Below are positions 13,528 to 22,819 of a stretch of DNA of 64,000 nucleotides, piece after piece (position 1 is the stretch's first letter; each line of letters opens with the position of its first letter). The notes below the pieces were generated by a model. The model searched no databases and had not been told where the DNA came from. It saw only the letters and a program-made list of their open reading frames with translations. Source of the stretch: Pectobacterium carotovorum (GTDB lineage: Bacteria; Pseudomonadota; Gammaproteobacteria; Enterobacterales; Enterobacteriaceae); contig NZ_FQWI01000004.1 in NCBI RefSeq assembly GCF_900129615.1, positions 186,001-250,000 on the forward strand, read 5' to 3'. The translations under genes were made by a program, and so were the position numbers.

Positions 13528-13595
13528 AGCGCGCGAGTTTAGGTAGAACGCTTTTAAATTTTCATCTTTTTGATTACGTGTCACGAGGAAGAACA

Positions 13596-14480
13596 ATGAG
13601 TAAAAATATTACCGGCGTCCTGACCGCCATCGTCACGCCGTTTGATAACCAGGGCGAATTTAACCCCGCTGCCATGCGTCTTCAGGTTCAGCGCCAGATG
13701 CGCTATGGCAACGGTATTTTCTGTAACGGCACCAACGGTGAGTTTTTCGTTCTGCACACCGATGAGAAAGTCGCCGTCACGGAAACCTGCGTTGATGAAG
13801 TTGCCGGAAAAGTGCCGGTTGTCGGCCACATCGGTGAAATCTCCACGCGGGAAACCATCAAGCTCGGCAAGCGCATCGCCGCGCTGGGTGTCGATGCCGT
13901 TTCGGTCATCACCCCGTATTTCATCCCACTCAAACAGGAAGAACTGATCGCCCACTACACCGCCGTCGCCGATGCGCTGACTGTGCCGGTGTTTCTCTAC
14001 AACATTCCTGCACGCACGGGGAATACGCTGGCACCGGAAACCGTCCGCACGCTGGCGGATCACCCGAACATCATCGGCATCAAAGACAGCGCAGGCAGCT
14101 ATGAAAGCCTGAGCGGCTATGTGCAAGCGGTGAAAGGTGTACAGGGTTTTAACGTATTGAATGGCCCAGACTCGCTCATTCACCAGGGCTTTGTTGACGG
14201 CTGCTCCGCCTGTATTTCCGGGCTGGCTAACGTGGCTCCGGAACCGATCAGCCAGATTTGGCACCGCTTCAACGCGGGTGACATCGAAGGCTCTCGTCAG
14301 GCACAAGAACAGGTTGCCGAATTGCGTAAGACACTGTACGCCATCGCGTTCTCACCGGCTGTGGTGAAAAAAGCGCTGGCAATCATGGGCGAAGATGTCG
14401 GCGTCAGCCGCTATCCGATCCAGTTTTCCGCACAGGATGAAGACAACATCCGCAACATACTTAGTCAATTCTCGCAGTAA
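13596..14480 (+). CDS. Dihydrodipicolinate synthase/N-acetylneuraminate lyase family aldolase
   Basis: A 294-residue class I aldolase. The pyruvate-binding motif appears as NGTNGEF (residues 44-50), the catalytic tyrosine is Y135 in VFLYNIPARTG and the Schiff-base lysine is K163 in IGIKDSAG. The family makes or breaks pyruvate-aldehyde bonds in DHDPS, NanA and 2-keto-3-deoxy acid aldolases. A normal dapA would not sit in a transporter operon, so this is probably a catabolic 2-keto-3-deoxy sugar acid or nonulosonate aldolase. ATG 13596 follows GAGGAAG; upstream ATG-like codons are not needed. Confidence 0.85.
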   Translation: MSKNITGVLTAIVTPFDNQGEFNPAAMRLQVQRQMRYGNGIFCNGTNGEFFVLHTDEKVAVTETCVDEVAGKVPVVGHIGEISTRETIKLGKRIAALGVDAVSVITPYFIPLKQEELIAHYTAVADALTVPVFLYNIPARTGNTLAPETVRTLADHPNIIGIKDSAGSYESLSGYVQAVKGVQGFNVLNGPDSLIHQGFVDGCSACISGLANVAPEPISQIWHRFNAGDIEGSRQAQEQVAELRKTLYAIAFSPAVVKKALAIMGEDVGVSRYPIQFSAQDEDNIRNILSQFSQ

Positions 14481-14518
14481 CAGAGAAATATCAATTTCCA
14501 CTTATAGGCCGAGAAGAT

Positions 14519-15934
14519 ATGAACCATTTTAACTTAACTGACACCCTCATAATCGTTGGGATGATTGTGTTTTATATCGCATTCACCTCATGGTTAACCT
14601 ACAAGCTCCGCAGTAAATCGAACACCGAATTCATGGAAGGCTCACGCGCGCTGCCGGCGTTTATCGTCGGTATCCTGCTGATGACCGAGTTCATCGGTGC
14701 CAAATCCACCATCGGTACGGCGCAGTCCGCCTTTGAGAACGGCTTTGCCGCATCCTGGTCAGTCATTGGTGCCGCCATCGGTTTCCCGCTGTTTGGTATG
14801 ATTCTGGTGAAGAAGATTTATAACACCGGGAAAATCACCATCTCCGGCGCGATTGCCGAGAAATACGGCACCAGCACCAAGAACATCATTTCGATCATCA
14901 TGATCTATGCACTGTTGCTGGTTAACGTGGGCAACTACGTCAGCGGCGCAGCAGCGATTGCCACCGTGTTGAAAGTCTCCCTGCCTGTCGCTGCGTTGAT
15001 CACCGCTGTCGTCAGTACCTTCTACTACTATTTCGGTGGCTTGAAAGGAACGGCCTACATCACGCTGATCCACAGCGCCGTGAAATACGCTGGCGTGATG
15101 ATCATTCTGTTCGTGGCATTGAAAATGACCGGCGGCTTCAAGCCAATGATCGAACAAATGCCGGATTACTACTGGACGTGGGACGGTAAACTCGGTGCCA
15201 GCACCATCTTCGCCTGGCTGATCGGGACCATCGGTTCTATCTTCTGTACGCAGTTCGTGATTCAGGCCATTTCATCAACGAAAGATGCCACCAGCGCCAA
15301 ACGTGCCACTTGGGTTGCCTTCTTCTTCTGTATGCCGATTGCGCTTGCTATCGCGGTCATCGGTGTCGCGGCGAAATTTGCTCACCCTGAAATCAACAGT
15401 CTGTACGCCATGCCTGTCTTCCTGCAAGACATGAACCCGTGGCTCGCCGGTCTGGTCACCACGTCACTGGTCGCGTCTATCTTCATCAGCGTGAGTATGG
15501 TGGCACTGGCTATCGTTTCCCTGCTGATTAAGGACTTCTACGTTCCTTACTGGAAACCGACGCCAGAAAAAGAGATGAAAATGACCCGAATCCTGTCGCT
15601 TGTCGTAGGTTTCGCGCCGCTCGTCTTCGTTCTGTTCGTTCCTGAAATCCTGAAGCTGTCGTTCTTTACCCGTGCTATTCGTCTGTCGATTTCTGTGGTA
15701 GCGGTGATTGCGTTCTATCTGCCGTTTTTCAACAGCGCACGCGGCGCAAACGCCAGCCTGATCTCAGCCTGCGTGGTCACCTCCATTTGGTATATTCTCG
15801 GCAACCCATACGGCATCGATAACATGTACGTCGCGTTGGTTACCCCAGCTATCGTCATGTTGATCGATCGCATGATTCCGAACAAAGCGAACAAAATCAA
15901 AATCTCTCCAACTGAAAATAAATCAGGAGCCTGA
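14519..15934 (+). CDS. Sodium:solute symporter (SSS family)
   Basis: A 471-residue inner-membrane protein with about 13 hydrophobic spans, showing SSS-family features: an early extended span (LIIVGMIVFYIAFTSWL), TEFIGAKSTIGTAQSAFENGF, and the GLKGTAYITLIHSAVKYAGV signature-like region near residues 175-195. It imports the operon's substrate with Na+. It lies 38 bases after the aldolase gene and 3 bases before the BNR gene. The closest functional parallels are sialic acid and sugar-acid symporters, but specificity is unknown. Confidence 0.85.
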   Translation: MNHFNLTDTLIIVGMIVFYIAFTSWLTYKLRSKSNTEFMEGSRALPAFIVGILLMTEFIGAKSTIGTAQSAFENGFAASWSVIGAAIGFPLFGMILVKKIYNTGKITISGAIAEKYGTSTKNIISIIMIYALLLVNVGNYVSGAAAIATVLKVSLPVAALITAVVSTFYYYFGGLKGTAYITLIHSAVKYAGVMIILFVALKMTGGFKPMIEQMPDYYWTWDGKLGASTIFAWLIGTIGSIFCTQFVIQAISSTKDATSAKRATWVAFFFCMPIALAIAVIGVAAKFAHPEINSLYAMPVFLQDMNPWLAGLVTTSLVASIFISVSMVALAIVSLLIKDFYVPYWKPTPEKEMKMTRILSLVVGFAPLVFVLFVPEILKLSFFTRAIRLSISVVAVIAFYLPFFNSARGANASLISACVVTSIWYILGNPYGIDNMYVALVTPAIVMLIDRMIPNKANKIKISPTENKSGA

Positions 15935-15937
15935 GTC

Positions 15938-17125
15938 ATGAGTAGCGAAACCATTACTGTGGAACGTAGCGGAAAAGTTCATCACGCAGAAGGCGATGCC
16001 GCGCGTCTGGATGCCTACATTCCATCGGAATGCCCGCAGAATCATGCGGCCAACCTGCTCCATCTGCCGAACGGCGATGTACTGTGCGTCTGGTTTGGCG
16101 GCACACAAGAAGGGATTGCGGATATCTCTATCTACATGTCCCGTCTGGTGAAAGGCAGCGATAGCTGGAGTAAAGCCGTTAGGTTGTCTGAAGATGCTAC
16201 GCGCTCCGAGCAGAATCCGGTTCTGTTCCTCGCGCCGGACAACGTGCTGTGGCTGCTGTACACCGCGCAGAAATCCGGTAATCAGGACACCGCGATTGTG
16301 CGCTACCGTCAGTCTACGGATTTCGGTGCCACCTGGGGCGAGATCGGCACGCTGCTCGATCAGCCGGGTACCTTCATCCGCCAGCCCATCACCGTGCTGG
16401 AAAATGGTGACTGGCTGCTGCCGGTGTTCTACTGCCGCGTTCAGCCGGGTGAGAAATGGGTCGGCAACGATGATGACAGCGCCGTGAAAATTTCCAGCGA
16501 TCAGGGGAAAACCTGGCAGGAATACCCGGTGCCAAACAGCACGGGCTGCGTGCATATGAACATCACCCCGCTGAAGGACAGCACGCTGCTAGCGCTGTAC
16601 CGCAGCCGCTGGGCGGACTTCATCTACCAAAGTCGTTCAACGGACGGCGGTAAAACCTGGTCAGATCCCGTGGCAACCGATTTGCCGAACAACAACTCGT
16701 CCATTCAGGTGACGACGCTGGAGAATGGCCATCTGGCGCTGGTGTTCAACCACATGAGCGCCGCCGATGCCACCGAGCGCCGTCTGTCGCTGTACGATGA
16801 AATCGAGGATGAAGAAGACAAAGCCAGCGATGCCAAAATGCCGGAAGTACAAGCCGGTGGTCGTAGCGCCTTCTGGGGTGCCCCGCGCGCGCCGATGACG
16901 CTCGCCATTTCGGAAGACGGCGGTAAGAGCTGGCCGTGGCAGCGCAATATCGAAGTGGGCGACGGTTATTGCATGACCAATAACTCCACGGAGAAGCTGA
17001 ACCGCGAGTTCTCTTACCCCAGCGTCAAGCAAGCGCAGGACGGTAAGCTGCACGTCGCGTTCACCTACTTCCGGCAGGCGATCAAGCACGTCGTGGTGAG
17101 CGAGGAGTGGGTCAAAGCGAACTAA
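15938..17125 (+). CDS. Cytoplasmic BNR/Asp-box (sialidase-fold) protein
   Basis: A 395-residue beta-propeller with four Asp boxes: STDFGATW, SSDQGKTW, STDGGKTW and SEDGGKSW. The N-terminus (NHAANLLHLPNGDVLCVWFGGTQEG) is conserved in a distinct group of sialidase-like proteins. There is no signal peptide, so it acts on imported material, unlike secreted sialidases, and I see no FRIP motif or arginine triad clearly enough to call it a neuraminidase. Alternatives are a rhamnosyl-glucuronate-type lyase or another oligosaccharide hydrolase of the same fold. Start codon follows TCAGGAGCC; coupled to the symporter gene. Confidence 0.75.
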   Translation: MSSETITVERSGKVHHAEGDAARLDAYIPSECPQNHAANLLHLPNGDVLCVWFGGTQEGIADISIYMSRLVKGSDSWSKAVRLSEDATRSEQNPVLFLAPDNVLWLLYTAQKSGNQDTAIVRYRQSTDFGATWGEIGTLLDQPGTFIRQPITVLENGDWLLPVFYCRVQPGEKWVGNDDDSAVKISSDQGKTWQEYPVPNSTGCVHMNITPLKDSTLLALYRSRWADFIYQSRSTDGGKTWSDPVATDLPNNNSSIQVTTLENGHLALVFNHMSAADATERRLSLYDEIEDEEDKASDAKMPEVQAGGRSAFWGAPRAPMTLAISEDGGKSWPWQRNIEVGDGYCMTNNSTEKLNREFSYPSVKQAQDGKLHVAFTYFRQAIKHVVVSEEWVKAN

Positions 17126-17170
17126 ACCGCGCGGCTTTTTTTCTCTTTATCAGCGGGGCCTCTCCCCCGC

Positions 17171-17297
<127 letters not shown>

Positions 17298-17313
17298 TAC
17301 CCGGGACACGATT

Positions 17314-17784
17314 ATGATTGCAGGAAACCTAAACGCCCTCAAACTCGCCACGTTACCCGATACGCTGTGGACCATTCTGTCCGCACCGGGCATGTCGTTA
17401 GCTGAGCTGAATGCGCTGCCCGAAGGCCGTTATCAGCCGGAAGGCGCCGAATGGTTCTACAACATCGGCACCGTGAACACCGCACCGCGCGCCACGCGAC
17501 ACACCGAATTTCACAGCAACTACCTTGATATTCAACTGATTCTGGAAGGCGAGGAGATTATCGGTTACGGTCTGAATGATGTGCATGGTCAGCCCGCGAC
17601 TGAACGTAAGCCGGATCTCTATATTTTGGATAATCCTCAGGTGCCGCATCAGATCCACCTGCGGGCAGGCGACTTCGTCACCTTCTATCCAGGTGAAGCT
17701 CATCAGGCGCTGTGTGCGATTAACGACAGCCCAGCCCCGGTCAAAAAAGCCGTGTTTAAAATCCCCGTTACGTTGTTGCAATAA
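17314..17784 (+). CDS. YhcH/YjgK/YiaL (DUF386) family protein
   Basis: A 156-residue cupin-like beta-barrel protein. The family signature HTEFHSNYLDIQLILEGEEIIGY (residues ~65-88) and the C-terminal YPGEAHQAL metal-site region are intact. Relatives assist sugar-acid and sialic acid catabolism, probably as sugar anomerases (NanQ/YhcH in nan operons). Its place after an NanA-type aldolase, symporter and BNR gene strengthens the analogy to sialic-acid-like pathways. The palindromic repeat separates it from the BNR gene. Confidence 0.85.
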   Translation: MIAGNLNALKLATLPDTLWTILSAPGMSLAELNALPEGRYQPEGAEWFYNIGTVNTAPRATRHTEFHSNYLDIQLILEGEEIIGYGLNDVHGQPATERKPDLYILDNPQVPHQIHLRAGDFVTFYPGEAHQALCAINDSPAPVKKAVFKIPVTLLQ

Positions 17785-17828
17785 GAACGGTTGTATCAGA
17801 ACGGTTGAATATTAAGGAGACGTATTTC

Positions 17829-18518
17829 ATGTCAGCGACAGCCCCTAAACACGCCCTGATTACCGGTAGCAGCTCAGGGATCGGTGCCGCCATCACACAA
17901 AAATTACTGGCGGAAGGCTGGCGGGTAACCGGCCTGTCACGCAAGCCGGGTGACTATTCACATCCAAATTTTACCCACCGCGCGGTGGATATCATGGATA
18001 CGCCCGCGCTGACGGCCATTCTGGACGAGATAGCACAGGTTGATGCCGTCATCCATGCCGCTGGCATTATGAAGGCGGCCCCGCTCGGCCAGCTTTCGCT
18101 CGAAGACGGTGAAACGCTGTGGCGATTGCATATCAACGCGGCACAGGTACTGGCCGATCGTCTGGTCGATAAGCTGCCGCAAGGTGGAAGAATTGTGCTA
18201 CTGGGCAGCCGCACGTCCAGCGGTTCAGCAGGACGCAGCCAGTACGTCACGACAAAATCCGCGATGATCGGCATGGCAAGAAGCTGGGCAGCAGAACTGG
18301 CTCCACGCGGCATTACAGTAAACATCGTCGCGCCGGGCGCAACAGAAACTCCGATGCTGACCATGCCGGGTCGCCAAAGCTCTCCGCCGAAGCTGCCGCC
18401 AATTGGACGCTTCATCCAGCCACAGGAAGTGGCCGATCTGGTGGGTTACCTGCTTTCCCCGTCTGCTGCGGCCATTACCGGCCAGCAGTTGGTGATGTGC
18501 GGCGGTGCCTCGCTGTAA
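17829..18518 (+). CDS. Short-chain dehydrogenase/reductase
   Basis: A 229-residue SDR with the cofactor motif TGSSSGIGA (residues ~13-21), the catalytic serine region LLGSRTSSGS, the catalytic YVTTK (Y-x-x-x-K) and APGATETPM after it. It would oxidise or reduce a sugar or sugar-acid intermediate using NAD(P). ATG 17829 is chosen because AAGGAG lies 9 bases upstream; the longer frame has no ATG. It is last in the run before the convergent LacI-type regulator, with a hairpin (18539-18561) between them. Confidence 0.85.
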   Translation: MSATAPKHALITGSSSGIGAAITQKLLAEGWRVTGLSRKPGDYSHPNFTHRAVDIMDTPALTAILDEIAQVDAVIHAAGIMKAAPLGQLSLEDGETLWRLHINAAQVLADRLVDKLPQGGRIVLLGSRTSSGSAGRSQYVTTKSAMIGMARSWAAELAPRGITVNIVAPGATETPMLTMPGRQSSPPKLPPIGRFIQPQEVADLVGYLLSPSAAAITGQQLVMCGGASL

Positions 18519-18563: not shown

Positions 18564-19754
18564 TTAGCTGCTGGCGCGGGGTTCAAAGATAAATTTCACC
18601 TTTTCCAGCACGGGCGGGTGATCGTCGTTTTCCATCATGGCGAGCACCAGACGCCCAACCTCCGCACCCAGCTTTTCATAGTCAAGCCGCATCGCGGTTA
18701 GCGCTGGGAACGTGTGCTCACATTGTTCGGAACCATCGAGACAGGCAATCGCCAGATCGTAAGGGACTTTCATCAGTCGGCGCTGGCATTCAAAGAGCGC
18801 GCCCAGTGCAATTTCCTCATGGCTACAGATAATCGCATCCAGCTCCGGCTGGTTTTGCAGCAGTTCCGTCATAGCGTAACGGCCAAATTGCAGGCTGGGT
18901 GCTTCTGGGATCGTAATTTTCAAATCCGCATTGTGATAGTGCGCCAGCATGGCTTTATTCCAGCCGTTCAACTGCTGTTTTTGCAAACGGTTATCCGTAT
19001 GAGCGCCAATATAAGCCACGTGACGATACCCCTTTTCCAGCAGCGACATCGTCAGTTGTTCCGCCGCTTCGGCAAGGGCGATATCAATATTGATATTTGC
19101 ACTCAGCGCATCAGCGCCGGAAACGTTCACCGTAATGACGTTACTGGCCTGGATGATGTCCTGAGTTCGCTGTGAGAGTTGGGCACTGAACAGCACCAGC
19201 GCCGCAGGCCGTTGCTGCAAGAGTTTTTCGACCATTCCCGCTTCGGTGTGCTGGCGATATTCATGGCAGCCCATGATTAACGGAATGTTGTGTTTGCCCA
19301 CCGCCTGTTGCAGCGCCTGCACAAAACGCACGCTGGCGCGATCTTGCTGAAAAGGATAAAGCACCGCGATAGCGGGCTGATAGGCTGATGCCAGTGCGCC
19401 TGCGGCCTGATTCGGTACATAGCCCAGCGTTTTTATCGCGTCATTGATTTTCTTCTGCGTGGCATCAGAAACCAGTCCGGGCTCCCGCAACGCGCGGGAC
19501 ACCGTCATGGCGCCAACACCGGCATGGTTCGCGATGTCCTGTAGCGTCACGCGATGGGTGCTCTCGGTAAGCTGGCTGGCTTCTTGATTGGGTTCATAGC
19601 CTAATGCTCTGGCGGCCAGTTCCACTTTGCTGCGTAACTTTTCAGAGACCAGATCGGGTTTGCGCATCACACGCGATACCGTCATCGTCCCTACGCCCGC
19701 GTAGTCGGCGACATCCTGTAGCGTAACCTTACCGGTACTGCGACGCTTACGCAT
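18564..19754 (-). CDS. LacI-family regulator with two tandem HTH domains
   Basis: A 396-residue protein carrying two complete LacI-type DNA-binding domains in series, residues ~9-57 and ~68-117, identical at 28 of 48 aligned positions (both contain VTLQD, MTVSR and LGY-PNQ). A single periplasmic-binding-protein-like sensor follows (~126-396), similar to the GntR/IdnR branch. Normal family members are ~330 residues with one HTH. ATG 19754 follows GGAGAGGAA; an in-frame ATG 33 bases upstream lacks such a site. It lies between the convergent sugar-acid operon and the divergent PTS operon and may control either or both. Confidence 0.9.
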   Translation of the reverse strand: MRKRRSTGKVTLQDVADYAGVGTMTVSRVMRKPDLVSEKLRSKVELAARALGYEPNQEASQLTESTHRVTLQDIANHAGVGAMTVSRALREPGLVSDATQKKINDAIKTLGYVPNQAAGALASAYQPAIAVLYPFQQDRASVRFVQALQQAVGKHNIPLIMGCHEYRQHTEAGMVEKLLQQRPAALVLFSAQLSQRTQDIIQASNVITVNVSGADALSANINIDIALAEAAEQLTMSLLEKGYRHVAYIGAHTDNRLQKQQLNGWNKAMLAHYHNADLKITIPEAPSLQFGRYAMTELLQNQPELDAIICSHEEIALGALFECQRRLMKVPYDLAIACLDGSEQCEHTFPALTAMRLDYEKLGAEVGRLVLAMMENDDHPPVLEKVKFIFEPRASS

Positions 19755-20072
19755 GCTCACTTCCTCTCCATTCGTCATTTTTCTCATCGCACGGTCGCGA
19801 TAACAGCCTGTTACGTCATTGCCTTCAGGCTAGCGTGAAGGGGTAAGCAACGTGCGAACACCCTGATTTCTACTGCGCCATTCACGCCGTGTCATCGCCG
19901 TTCATAGTGTGCCTGTGACAACACGGGGGAACAAATAATGGCCCCGCTTGTGCTAAGCAGGTCACAGTTAATGATAGTCATATCAGTTAGCGCTATCTTT
20001 TTAGATGCTAATCACATTATTTTCGACGCTGGCACACTATCCTGCGTTCAGAATGATACAGAGGTGACTCTA
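19755..20072. promoter_or_regulatory. Divergent region between lacI-type gene and PTS operon
   Basis: A 318-bp region. The sequence GTTAGCGCTATC at 19987-19998 contains the perfect palindrome TAGCGCTA with a central CG, the style of LacI-family operators, but the site is short. An in-frame upstream extension of the IIA gene exists but lacks a ribosome-binding site. No other gene seen. Confidence 0.35.
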
Positions 20073-20516
20073 ATGCTTAACACTTTACTAACACCAGACG
20101 TTGTTCAGATTTTACCTGCCTGTGATGACTGGCGTCACGCTATCGCCTTGTCCTGTAAGCCTTTACTGGATAACGGTTCGATTGAACCCACCTATGTTGA
20201 GGCGATCTACCGCTCTCATGAGGCCATCGGTCCTTACTATGTCGTCGGCCCTGGGATTGCCATGCCGCATGCGCGCCCGGAAGACGGCGTGAACCAACTT
20301 GCCGTCAGCCTGACGCTGATTCGCGACGGCGTGGTTTTCCATTCCGAAGACAACGATCCCGTGCATTTACTGATTGTTTTGGCCGCTACGGACAGCAATA
20401 GCCATATCGATATTATTTCACAGCTTGCTCAGTTGTTCGACACGCCTGATGACGTCGCCGCATTACTCCGCGCGACGAACGTAGAACAGGTGCTTTCCGT
20501 TATTTCTCGTTATTAA
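20073..20516 (+). CDS. PTS enzyme IIA, ascorbate/mannitol-fructose type
   Basis: A 147-residue IIA protein with the phosphorylated histidine in GPGIAMPHARPEDG, near residue 67. The family (PTS_EIIA_2) includes UlaC and SgcA. ATG 20073 is chosen because GAGGTGA precedes it by about 5 bases and the length then matches UlaC-like proteins; the longer frame adds residues unrelated to the family. It takes phosphate from HPr and passes it to the IIB protein encoded next. First gene of the PTS/aldolase operon. Confidence 0.88.
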   Translation: MLNTLLTPDVVQILPACDDWRHAIALSCKPLLDNGSIEPTYVEAIYRSHEAIGPYYVVGPGIAMPHARPEDGVNQLAVSLTLIRDGVVFHSEDNDPVHLLIVLAATDSNSHIDIISQLAQLFDTPDDVAALLRATNVEQVLSVISRY

Positions 20517-20538: not shown

Positions 20539-20826
20539 ATGAAAATTACAGTCGTATGCGGTAACGGTCTTGGTACCAGCCTGATGATGGAAATGAGCAT
20601 TAAAAACATCGTTAAAGAACTCGGCGTGGTTGCTGACGTGGATCACGTAGATTTGGGCTCAGCGAAAGGCACGGATAGCGACATTTTTGTCGGTACAAAG
20701 GATATTGCCGATCAGCTCGTCGCGCAGGCAGTGGGGGGGAAAATTGTGTCCCTGAGCAACATGATCGATAAAGTGGCGATGAAAGAGCGCCTGTCGGTCG
20801 CCCTGACAGAACTTGGCGCATTATAA
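20539..20826 (+). CDS. PTS enzyme IIB, ascorbate/galactitol type
   Basis: A 95-residue IIB protein with the phosphocysteine in ITVVCGNGLGTSLMM (C8), the P-loop arrangement of UlaB and SgcB. It phosphorylates the sugar during passage through the IIC membrane protein encoded 14 bases downstream. Length is as expected for the family. Confidence 0.88.
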   Translation: MKITVVCGNGLGTSLMMEMSIKNIVKELGVVADVDHVDLGSAKGTDSDIFVGTKDIADQLVAQAVGGKIVSLSNMIDKVAMKERLSVALTELGAL

Positions 20827-20840
20827 GCGGGGGATCAAAA

Positions 20841-22100
20841 ATGGAATTCTTCCGTTTTTTAATGAGTGATGTGCTGTCTGAACCCTCCATCCTGGTCGGT
20901 TTGATTGCGCTTATCGGCCTGATTGCACAGAAAAAACCGGCCACAGAATGCATCAAGGGAACCGTGAAAACCGTAATGGGTTTCCTGATCCTCGGGGCAG
21001 GCGCGAGCCTGATCGTGTCCTCACTGGGAGATTTCGCCCAGATTTTCCACCATGCGTTTGGTATCGCCGGTGTGGTGCCTAACAATGAAGCCATTGTCGC
21101 CGTCGCACAGAAGAACTTCGGCACCGAGATGGCAATGATCATGTTCTTCGCGATGGTCATTAATATCGCAATCGCACGCTTTACGCCGTGGAAATACATT
21201 TTCCTGACTGGCCACCACACGCTGTTTATGTCGATGATGGTTGCCGTGATTCTAGCGACCGCGGGTATGAAAGGCGTGCTGCTGATTACCGTTGGGTCGC
21301 TGGTGGTTGGGGTATCGATGGTGCTGTTCCCTGCCATTATTCACCCGTATATGAAGAAAGTCACAGGCTCGGATGACGTCGCCTTTGGTCACTTCTCTGC
21401 AATATCGCAGCTGTTGTCGGCCTTTATCGGCAGCAAGTTTGGTAATAAAGAGAAATCAACGGAGGACATGGAAGTACCGAAGAGCCTGCTGTTCCTGCGT
21501 GATACGCCGGTTGCCATCGCCTTTACCATGTTCTTCATCTTCATTTTCACCTGCCTGTTTGCTGGCCCGGAAGCGGTGAAAACGATGAATGCCGGTGGGA
21601 AAAACTGGTTCATGTTTTCGCTGATCCAATCCATTACCTTTGCCGCTGGCGTGTATATCGTGCTGCAAGGCGTGCGGATGGTCATTGCAGAAATCGTGCC
21701 TGCGTTTAAAGGCATTTCCGACAAACTCGTCCCGAATGCTAAACCCGCATTAGATTGCCCCGTTGTCTTCCCGTATGCCCCGAATGCCGTTCTGGTCGGC
21801 TTCCTGAGCAGCTTTGCGGCTGGGGTGATCGGTATGGTCCTGCTCTACCTGCTGGGCATGACGGTGATCATTCCTGGCGTGGTGCCGCACTTCTTCGTCG
21901 GCGCAGCGGCCGGCGTGTTCGGTAACGCCACCGGCGGGCGTCGCGGCGCGATTTTAGGTTCTTTCGCCAACGGACTGCTGATTACCTTCCTGCCTGTTTT
22001 CCTGCTGCCGGTGTTGGGCAGTATTGGACTGGCAAACACCACGTTCAGCGACTCCGATTTCGGCGCGGTGGGGATTCTGCTGGGCATTATCGTGCGCTAA
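20841..22100 (+). CDS. PTS enzyme IIC, UlaA/SgaT family
   Basis: A 419-residue polytopic membrane protein with about ten spans, similar to the ascorbate PTS permease UlaA/SgaT: QKKPATECIKGTVKTVMGFLILGAGA near the N-terminus, ITGHHT-like LTGHHTLFM, and C-terminal FVGAAAGVFGNATGGRRGAILGSF. It translocates and phosphorylates the substrate with IIA and IIB. No L-ascorbate-6-phosphate lactonase or ulaDEF genes are present, so the substrate is probably not ascorbate. Confidence 0.85.
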   Translation: MEFFRFLMSDVLSEPSILVGLIALIGLIAQKKPATECIKGTVKTVMGFLILGAGASLIVSSLGDFAQIFHHAFGIAGVVPNNEAIVAVAQKNFGTEMAMIMFFAMVINIAIARFTPWKYIFLTGHHTLFMSMMVAVILATAGMKGVLLITVGSLVVGVSMVLFPAIIHPYMKKVTGSDDVAFGHFSAISQLLSAFIGSKFGNKEKSTEDMEVPKSLLFLRDTPVAIAFTMFFIFIFTCLFAGPEAVKTMNAGGKNWFMFSLIQSITFAAGVYIVLQGVRMVIAEIVPAFKGISDKLVPNAKPALDCPVVFPYAPNAVLVGFLSSFAAGVIGMVLLYLLGMTVIIPGVVPHFFVGAAAGVFGNATGGRRGAILGSFANGLLITFLPVFLLPVLGSIGLANTTFSDSDFGAVGILLGIIVR

Positions 22101-22153
22101 GCCCGCATAGTGCATGTCATCCAACAGACCGATTTTAGTTAACGGGGGAAATG

Positions 22154-22819
22154 ATGGAATTCTATTTAGATACGGCGGATGTAGCCGCAGTAGAACGACT
22201 CGCAGGCGTGTTGCCGATTAAAGGCGTGACCACCAATCCGAGTATTGTCGCACGCGGAAAATCCGATATTTACAGCGTGCTACGGGACATGCAAGCCGTT
22301 ATCGGCACGGAAGGACAGCTGTTTGCTCAGGTGATGTCACGCGATCCTGACGTGATGGTGGAAGAGGCGTTGAAGCTCAGGGATGTGATTCCTTCTCTGG
22401 TCGTTAAAGTGCCGGTGACACATGCGGGTTTGAGTGCCATCAGGCAGTTGACGGCGCTGGATATTCCCACCCTCGGCACCGCCGTATACGGTGCGGGACA
22501 AGGGTTTTATGCCGCGCTGGCTGGCGCTCGTTATATCGCGCCTTACGTCAACCGCATTGATGCGCAAGGTGGCGATGGGATTGCGCTCGTGAAAGAACTG
22601 CAAACTCTGATTAACCTGCACAGCCCGCAGACTCAGGTACTGGCAGCCAGCTTTCGCACACCGCGTCAGGTGCTGGACTGCCTGCTGGCGGGGTGTCGGG
22701 CGATTACCGTCGACCCTGCGGTTGCTGAACTGTTCCTGCAAGATCCTGCGGTTGAAGATGCGCTTAATCGGTTCGATTATGACTGGCAGGCACGCTTTGG
22801 TCATGCCGATCTTGGCTGA
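22154..22819 (+). CDS. fsa: Fructose-6-phosphate aldolase-like (transaldolase family)
   Basis: A 221-residue small transaldolase-family aldolase very similar to E. coli FsaA/Fsa[11 protein letters not shown] start, GVTTNPSIV, the Schiff-base lysine exactly at K85 in [29 protein letters not shown] and [18 protein letters not shown]. It cleaves fructose-6-phosphate or a related ketose phosphate to dihydroxyacetone and glyceraldehyde-3-phosphate. The second of two adjacent ATGs matches the family N-terminus. Its place behind a PTS suggests that it cleaves the PTS product. Confidence 0.88.

Follow-up and report, generated by a model that had tools for sequence, protein, structure and literature searches.

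The gene at 18564..19754 on the minus strand (stop codon included) of the window, the whole stretch of 64,000 nucleotides that was analysed, codes for a LacI/GntR-type regulator of 396 residues with two HTH modules, as follows from its Pfam matches, its conserved start and its orthologues. The architecture is conserved, the proteins that have it form a single clade, and it is accompanied by an altered first hinge and by two operator-like sites in the divergent region, one of which (P1) lacks the central CG that the other (P2) has kept. From these sequences it may be proposed, with a probability that we would place a little short of even, that the regulator is a repressor of the divergent PTS operon, which holds P2 with HTH2 and the arms of P1 with a hinge-free HTH1, and in this way blocks activation by CRP until a sugar releases it.

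Two HTH modules in one regulator chain

With residues numbered from the ATG at 19754 (M1), the protein is matched by PF00356 in two stretches with 124.4 bits (cut-off 27), and alongside these two LacI HTH stretches there is one Peripla_BP_3 sensor; the sensor-type families PF13377 and PF00532 both exceed their cut-offs. All parts lie on the minus strand. HTH1 with hinge 1, which is acidic at the equivalent of LacI Val52, comprises residues 10-62 (19569..19727), a linker of 6 residues (19551..19568) leads to HTH2 with hinge 2 at residues 69-121 (19392..19550), where the hinge resembles that of single-HTH orthologues, and the single sensor domain with the fold of periplasmic binding proteins is encoded at 18567..19370. 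The solved structure that is closest to it by sequence and fold is 3d8u, a PurR-family protein of Vibrio parahaemolyticus, with a match that covers the sensor domain only. The two modules are identical in 30 of 53 residues, and over the first 48 residues the count of 28 that the first-pass annotation gave for its two intact modules was reproduced exactly. In an AlphaFold model of the monomer (mean 73.0, pTM 0.57) both three-helix heads reach a pLDDT of about 80 and the hinges are of low confidence, and the Foldseek matches of this model (3d8u, PurR, CcpA and LacI) have the LacI-family fold.

LacI itself is the textbook repressor with one HTH per subunit. Such a layout is usual for the family and does not define it; the regulator, which carries two modules, is assigned to the family by homology as a variant, and going by what is known of the family, its dimer would present four HTHs. 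In the usual description (PMC4052901), members of the family have a single HTH domain at the N-terminus. No LacI protein with two of them was among the matches listed in the open-access literature on two-HTH LacI proteins and overlapping operators, and the two-HTH proteins described in PMC9723621, PMC3302838 and PMC6018408 belong to other families. The best NCBIfam matches of the regulator are NF052440 (284.9 bits, cut-off 400) and IdnR (211), followed by the GntR equivalog NF011563 with 192.6 bits, under its cut-off of 433, and CytR NF008269 with 138.3 bits, far under 436. It thus resembles the GntR/IdnR subfamily in these best matches and in that overlapping operators about 13 bp apart have been reported for GntR sites (PMC4052901), but its scores do not reach the curated cut-offs, it carries two HTH modules, the half-sites are GATAGC/GTTAGC, and its neighbour is an ascorbate-type PTS.

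The longest open reading frame of the regulator (18564-19787, minus strand) extends beyond the ATG at 19754. This ATG is present at the equivalent place in 24/24 loci examined, with a purine-rich ribosome site ahead of it, which is a Shine-Dalgarno-like GGAGAGG at 19763..19769 (minus strand) in the window, and the sequence further upstream varies between genera; the ATG at 19754 is likely the start. A product that consists of HTH2 and the sensor, made from an internal start, was considered and rejected, as the in-frame start is not conserved and a GTG at the first residue of HTH2 occurs in 9/21 loci. The conserved ATG stands ahead of HTH1, where the earlier claim required it.

The difference between the modules lies in the hinges. 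At the position that we take to be Val52 in LacI, HTH1 has E or D in 18/21 tandem proteins, Q once and P twice, while Ala stands at this place in HTH2 in 19/21 and in the single-HTH proteins in 30/32. The Leu56-equivalent of HTH1 is kept as L in 19/21 and is V in 2/21, and hinge 1 therefore may not be dead; the recognition segment G-x-MTVSR of HTH1 is kept in 21/21. The linker between hinge 1 and HTH2 has 6-7 residues in most of these proteins and 16 in Brenneria, which argues for a flexible tether.

Distribution and origin of the tandem architecture

Full-length matches of at least 92% to the regulator occur in 21/25 Pectobacterium genomes without inner stops, and the remaining four genomes (G011, G014, G018, G023) have only distant paralogues (28-29%). 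Of the 21 tandem loci that were compared, 10 are from Pectobacterium, 7 from Erwinia and one each from Samsonia, Brenneria, Pantoea coffeiphila and Winslowiella; P. versatile KC01 matches with 99%. An assembly artefact, for which the reading frame was to be checked according to the first-pass annotation, is ruled out by the identical architecture in the 21 genomes and 21 loci, and the orthologues with the same duplication that it called for exist in the other taxa of this list as well. When scanned with Pfam, 4/4 tandem orthologues had two LacI stretches and the Vibrio hepatarius orthologue had one.

The searches scored about 10 candidates per genome with differing E-value limits, so that divergent tandem proteins could escape, and matches that span both modules were found in 8/392 genomes of the family, in 4/394 of the order, in 1/369 of the class (the own genome; E up to 1e-24) and in 3/398 of the phylum sample (all of the own genus; E up to 1e-17). 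Outside Pectobacterium, the class (369) and phylum (398) samples contained no LacI protein that matched over both modules. HTH1 had a dN/dS of 0.06-0.17 in 10 chosen pairs, compared with 0.02-0.21 in HTH2 and 0.02-0.13 in the core. As the values are low in both modules, neither of them is decaying and both are, as judged by these ratios, under purifying selection; the idea of HTH1 as a decaying copy is excluded by its values in the 10 pairs.

The sensor-domain tree, built from 52 rows, carries a long-branch warning from the tool; in it the 21 tandem proteins form one side of a branch with support of 100/99, and this clade adjoins four rows with a single HTH, which come from two genera of the same family. 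At its N-terminus (RKRRSTGxVTL) HTH1 is similar to the single-HTH orthologues, and HTH2 is so in its hinge (NxAAGALAS), just as is expected from a duplication within the gene. In the HTH domain tree, which has 55 columns only, HTH1 joins the sister single-HTHs (87/88) and HTH2 stands apart, a result that is compatible with such a duplication, if weakly. The mean identity of the modules to the HTHs labelled 'other' is 32-33/53 and no lower than that to the single-HTH orthologues, but some of these 27 rows are actually orthologues, which is why these identities cannot separate a duplication from an HTH2 of foreign origin. We infer that a single duplication, some 59 codons long, gave rise to the second HTH-hinge module in an ancestor among the enterobacteria, and that this duplication would be the source of HTH2.

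The divergent control region and its genes

On the plus strand, the regulator is faced by the genes of a PTS, namely EIIA (20073..20516), EIIB (20539..20826) and an ascorbate-type EIIC (20841..22100), followed by a gene of the fructose-6-phosphate aldolase type (22151..22819); EIIC and the aldolase are both over their NCBIfam cut-offs. The EIIA gene lies inside a longer open reading frame (19938-20516), which would engulf both operators, and its likely start is MLNTLL at 20073, a start that is shared by relatives. EIIA, EIIB and EIIC are divergent to the regulator in 23/23 loci, the single-HTH locus of V. hepatarius included, and in 28/30 further single-HTH loci, and the four genomes of the genus that have no regulator also have no close EIIC (best 59%, 59%, 49% partial, none).

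On the other side, convergent to the regulator, there is an operon at 13578-18518 with genes for a DHDPS-type lyase, a sodium:solute symporter, a BNR/sialidase-like protein, YhcH and a short-chain dehydrogenase. This sialate-type operon lies within 5 kb of the regulator in only some Pectobacterium loci and is an inconstant neighbour, whereas the PTS genes are constant. The bridging of both flanking operons, which the first-pass annotation had considered, could not be upheld, as the window has a perfect GWTAGCGCTAWC at 19986 only and one of the two operons is not a stable neighbour.

Between the regulator and EIIA there are two candidate palindromes, P2 (GTTAGCGCTATC, 19986..19997), which keeps the central CG, and P1 (GATAnnnnTATC, 19973..19984), which keeps the arms and is variable in the centre, at a distance of 13 bp from centre to centre. 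The binding of two adjacent operators that had been suggested for the regulator would fit these overlapping palindromes. They are flanked by two sites that resemble the CRP consensus, site 1 at 19951..19966 and site 2 at 20001..20016; the right halves TCACA, at 19962 and 20012 respectively, are separated by 50 bp. The pattern TTAGCGnTA is present in the divergent region of 45/45 tandem rows (24 + 21 loci, species partly shared), and in all of them TCACA halves 50 bp apart flank P1 and P2. Thirteen representatives can be aligned without gaps to the consensus TCACA.Tta.TGATA....TA.CaGTTAGCG.TA.CTTtTtaGAt.t...TCACATtatT, in which capitals stand for 13/13 and small letters for at least 11. Among the 27 distinct 25-mers, arm A of P1 is GATA in all, arm B is TATC in 18 and TAAC in 9, and the centre of P1 has 18 forms and is without the central CG in 27/27; P2 retains GCG in all 27, in rows that were anchored on GTTAGCG.

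The double pattern of P1 and P2, which was composed after the site had been seen, occurs once in the window and on average 0.01 times in shuffled sequences, one of 100 of which had it. Taken singly and with up to two mismatches, the pattern is not enriched in the window (12 vs 7.3), no perfect GWTAGCGCTAWC exists in the window besides the one at 19986, and a genome-wide regulon is not indicated in the own genome, where GDTAGCGNTAHC has 33 matches vs 51 for the reversed control. One further exact GTTAGCGCTATC in the own genome (L203:1501-1512), between an HNH-type open reading frame and another one, may be due to chance.

For comparison, 32 single-HTH loci were examined, 30 from a search with the Vibrio protein, which matched 62 genomes including a few with tandem proteins, and two Vibrio loci. 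These orthologues (V. hepatarius and L155-L183 without L160) have the same divergent EIIA-EIIB-EIIC genes and the same half-sites, but have one HTH. Two or more palindromes G[AGT]TA[AG]CG[CT]TA[ACT]C lie upstream in 30/32 loci, and in 20/32 a pair is exactly 13 bp apart; other than in the tandem clade, both palindromes of this pair have GCGC centres, and 16 of these loci have a third one 21-22 bp further on. Among the nearest orthologues with one HTH, this third palindrome has the position of CRP-like site 1. TCACA halves at a spacing of 49-51 bp are found in 17/20 loci with the 13-bp pair and in 20/32 overall. The tandem clade thus retains the layout of the single-HTH orthologues, minus the central CG of P1 and the third palindrome.

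In 10/32 loci the palindromes of a pair are 34-35 bp apart, among them L175-L183, which have more distant EII proteins (40-56% identity) and a spacing near another one that is preferred in the LacI family. The two loci without palindromes are L184, which has no EII gene within its 1.5-kb flanks, and L160, which looks rearranged: its regulator relative has an HTH that is cut short, and EIIC is oddly placed with no EIIA or EIIB nearby. The divergent region of V. hepatarius (L101:4594-4941) contains five palindromes, and one that precedes the start of the regulator by about 50 bp may point to autoregulation.

Possible modes of DNA binding

Within the LacI family the regulator stands near GntR, and it would locally repress the ascorbate-type PTS operon that diverges from it. 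Its core-proximal HTH2 pair would bind P2 in the canonical way, with the helices of hinge 2 placed at the central CG, and HTH1 would read the arms of the overlapping P1, 13 bp off, without hinge insertion. Hinge 1 has turned acidic and is unlikely to enter the minor groove, and if HTH1 reads the arms without it, the central CG of P1 is no longer needed. The protein, with its altered hinge 1, and the DNA, with a free centre between conserved arms, agree with each other in this respect, and HTH1 thus seems to be hinge-free on P1. The bound protein would sit between the two CRP-like sites and block CRP-dependent activation, a location that recalls CytR and suggests anti-activation, and a sugar or sugar phosphate would release it.

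It is a less probable proposition that one dimer covers the 13-bp double operator with all four HTHs, two of them hinge-dependent and two hinge-free, and that the operator has changed to match. If true, one chain would combine what takes two dimers in the single-HTH orthologues. A difficulty for the main reading as well is that P1 is offset from P2 by 13 bp and does not share the dyad of a P2-bound dimer; as the linkers have mostly 6-7 residues, one dimer would get to all four arms only with an unfolded hinge 1 and with chains of unequal reach.

The 13-bp pair does not by itself need two HTHs, since 20/32 single-HTH loci have it too, and two tandem dimers might sit side by side on P1 and P2 via their HTH2 pairs, as is presumably the case for the single-HTH orthologues, with HTH1 adding only non-specific affinity, so that the operator could decay. 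The missing third palindrome and the missing P1 centre of the tandem clade are what such a relaxed selection predicts, but simple relaxation should affect the arms as well, which are kept in 27/27, and HTH1 retains its recognition segment in 21/21; we consider this arrangement unlikely. It is somewhat less likely still that arm A is kept as the -10 box of the regulator and arm B as an outer contact of P2, while HTH1 binds elsewhere or weakly. On the minus strand, arm A reads TATCAT, which agrees in 5/6 positions with the -10 consensus, and transcription would then begin some 41-45 bp away from CRP-like site 2, a distance usual for class II; arm A could have been kept as a promoter element, which counts against the main reading too. 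The promoter scan, however, found nothing at its threshold, the change of arm B from TATC to TAAC preserves the half-site type G[AT]TA, and the single-HTH orthologues have full palindromes at the same positions.

Alternatively, HTH1 could be mainly a module for protein contacts, for instance with CRP, in a repression complex like that of CytR, which represses with two CRP sites according to PMC3454398. The TCACA halves around P1 and P2 in 45/45 tandem rows would suit this, and PMC6018408 ascribes a contact with RNA polymerase to one of the two HTHs of the AraC-type regulator Rob. As the single-HTH loci share the TCACA pair (17/20 of those with the 13-bp pair), HTH1 is not needed for the CRP-like layout, and a role of this kind is improbable. 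Least probable of all, in our judgement, is that HTH1 lets one dimer hold two DNA segments and thereby loop or bridge operators. Four HTHs would enable a dimer to do this, and the single-HTH V. hepatarius has further palindromes 43 and 259 bp away, but there is no second perfect site in the window outside the PTS region, the genome shows no excess of the motif (33 vs 51 for the reversed control), and the linker has mostly 6-7 residues.

CytR is a usual LacI-type protein with one HTH and, other than the tandem regulator, acts on nucleoside genes. This LacI-family protein of Escherichia coli represses with CRP sites that flank it, and its relaxed half-site spacing has been ascribed to a flexible linker (PMC3454398). 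For the LacI family, the distances between sites have been described to peak at 13, 22 and 32 bp, and overlapping operators about 13 bp apart have been reported upstream of 110 operons and demonstrated in the case of GntR; as they are hard to fit to the known structures, a partial unwinding of the DNA has been offered as a possibility (PMC4052901). The two-HTH clade and the single-HTH orthologues with a matching operator layout amount to a natural experiment: a comparison of both kinds of regulators on matching sites makes the puzzle of the overlapping operators directly testable and may show how repressor and operator change together. Two HTHs per subunit in combination with a LacI/GalR-like sensor are also known from XylR of Escherichia coli (PMC6018408), but there the pair belongs to an AraC-type domain, whereas both modules of the tandem regulator are of the LacI type and have hinges.
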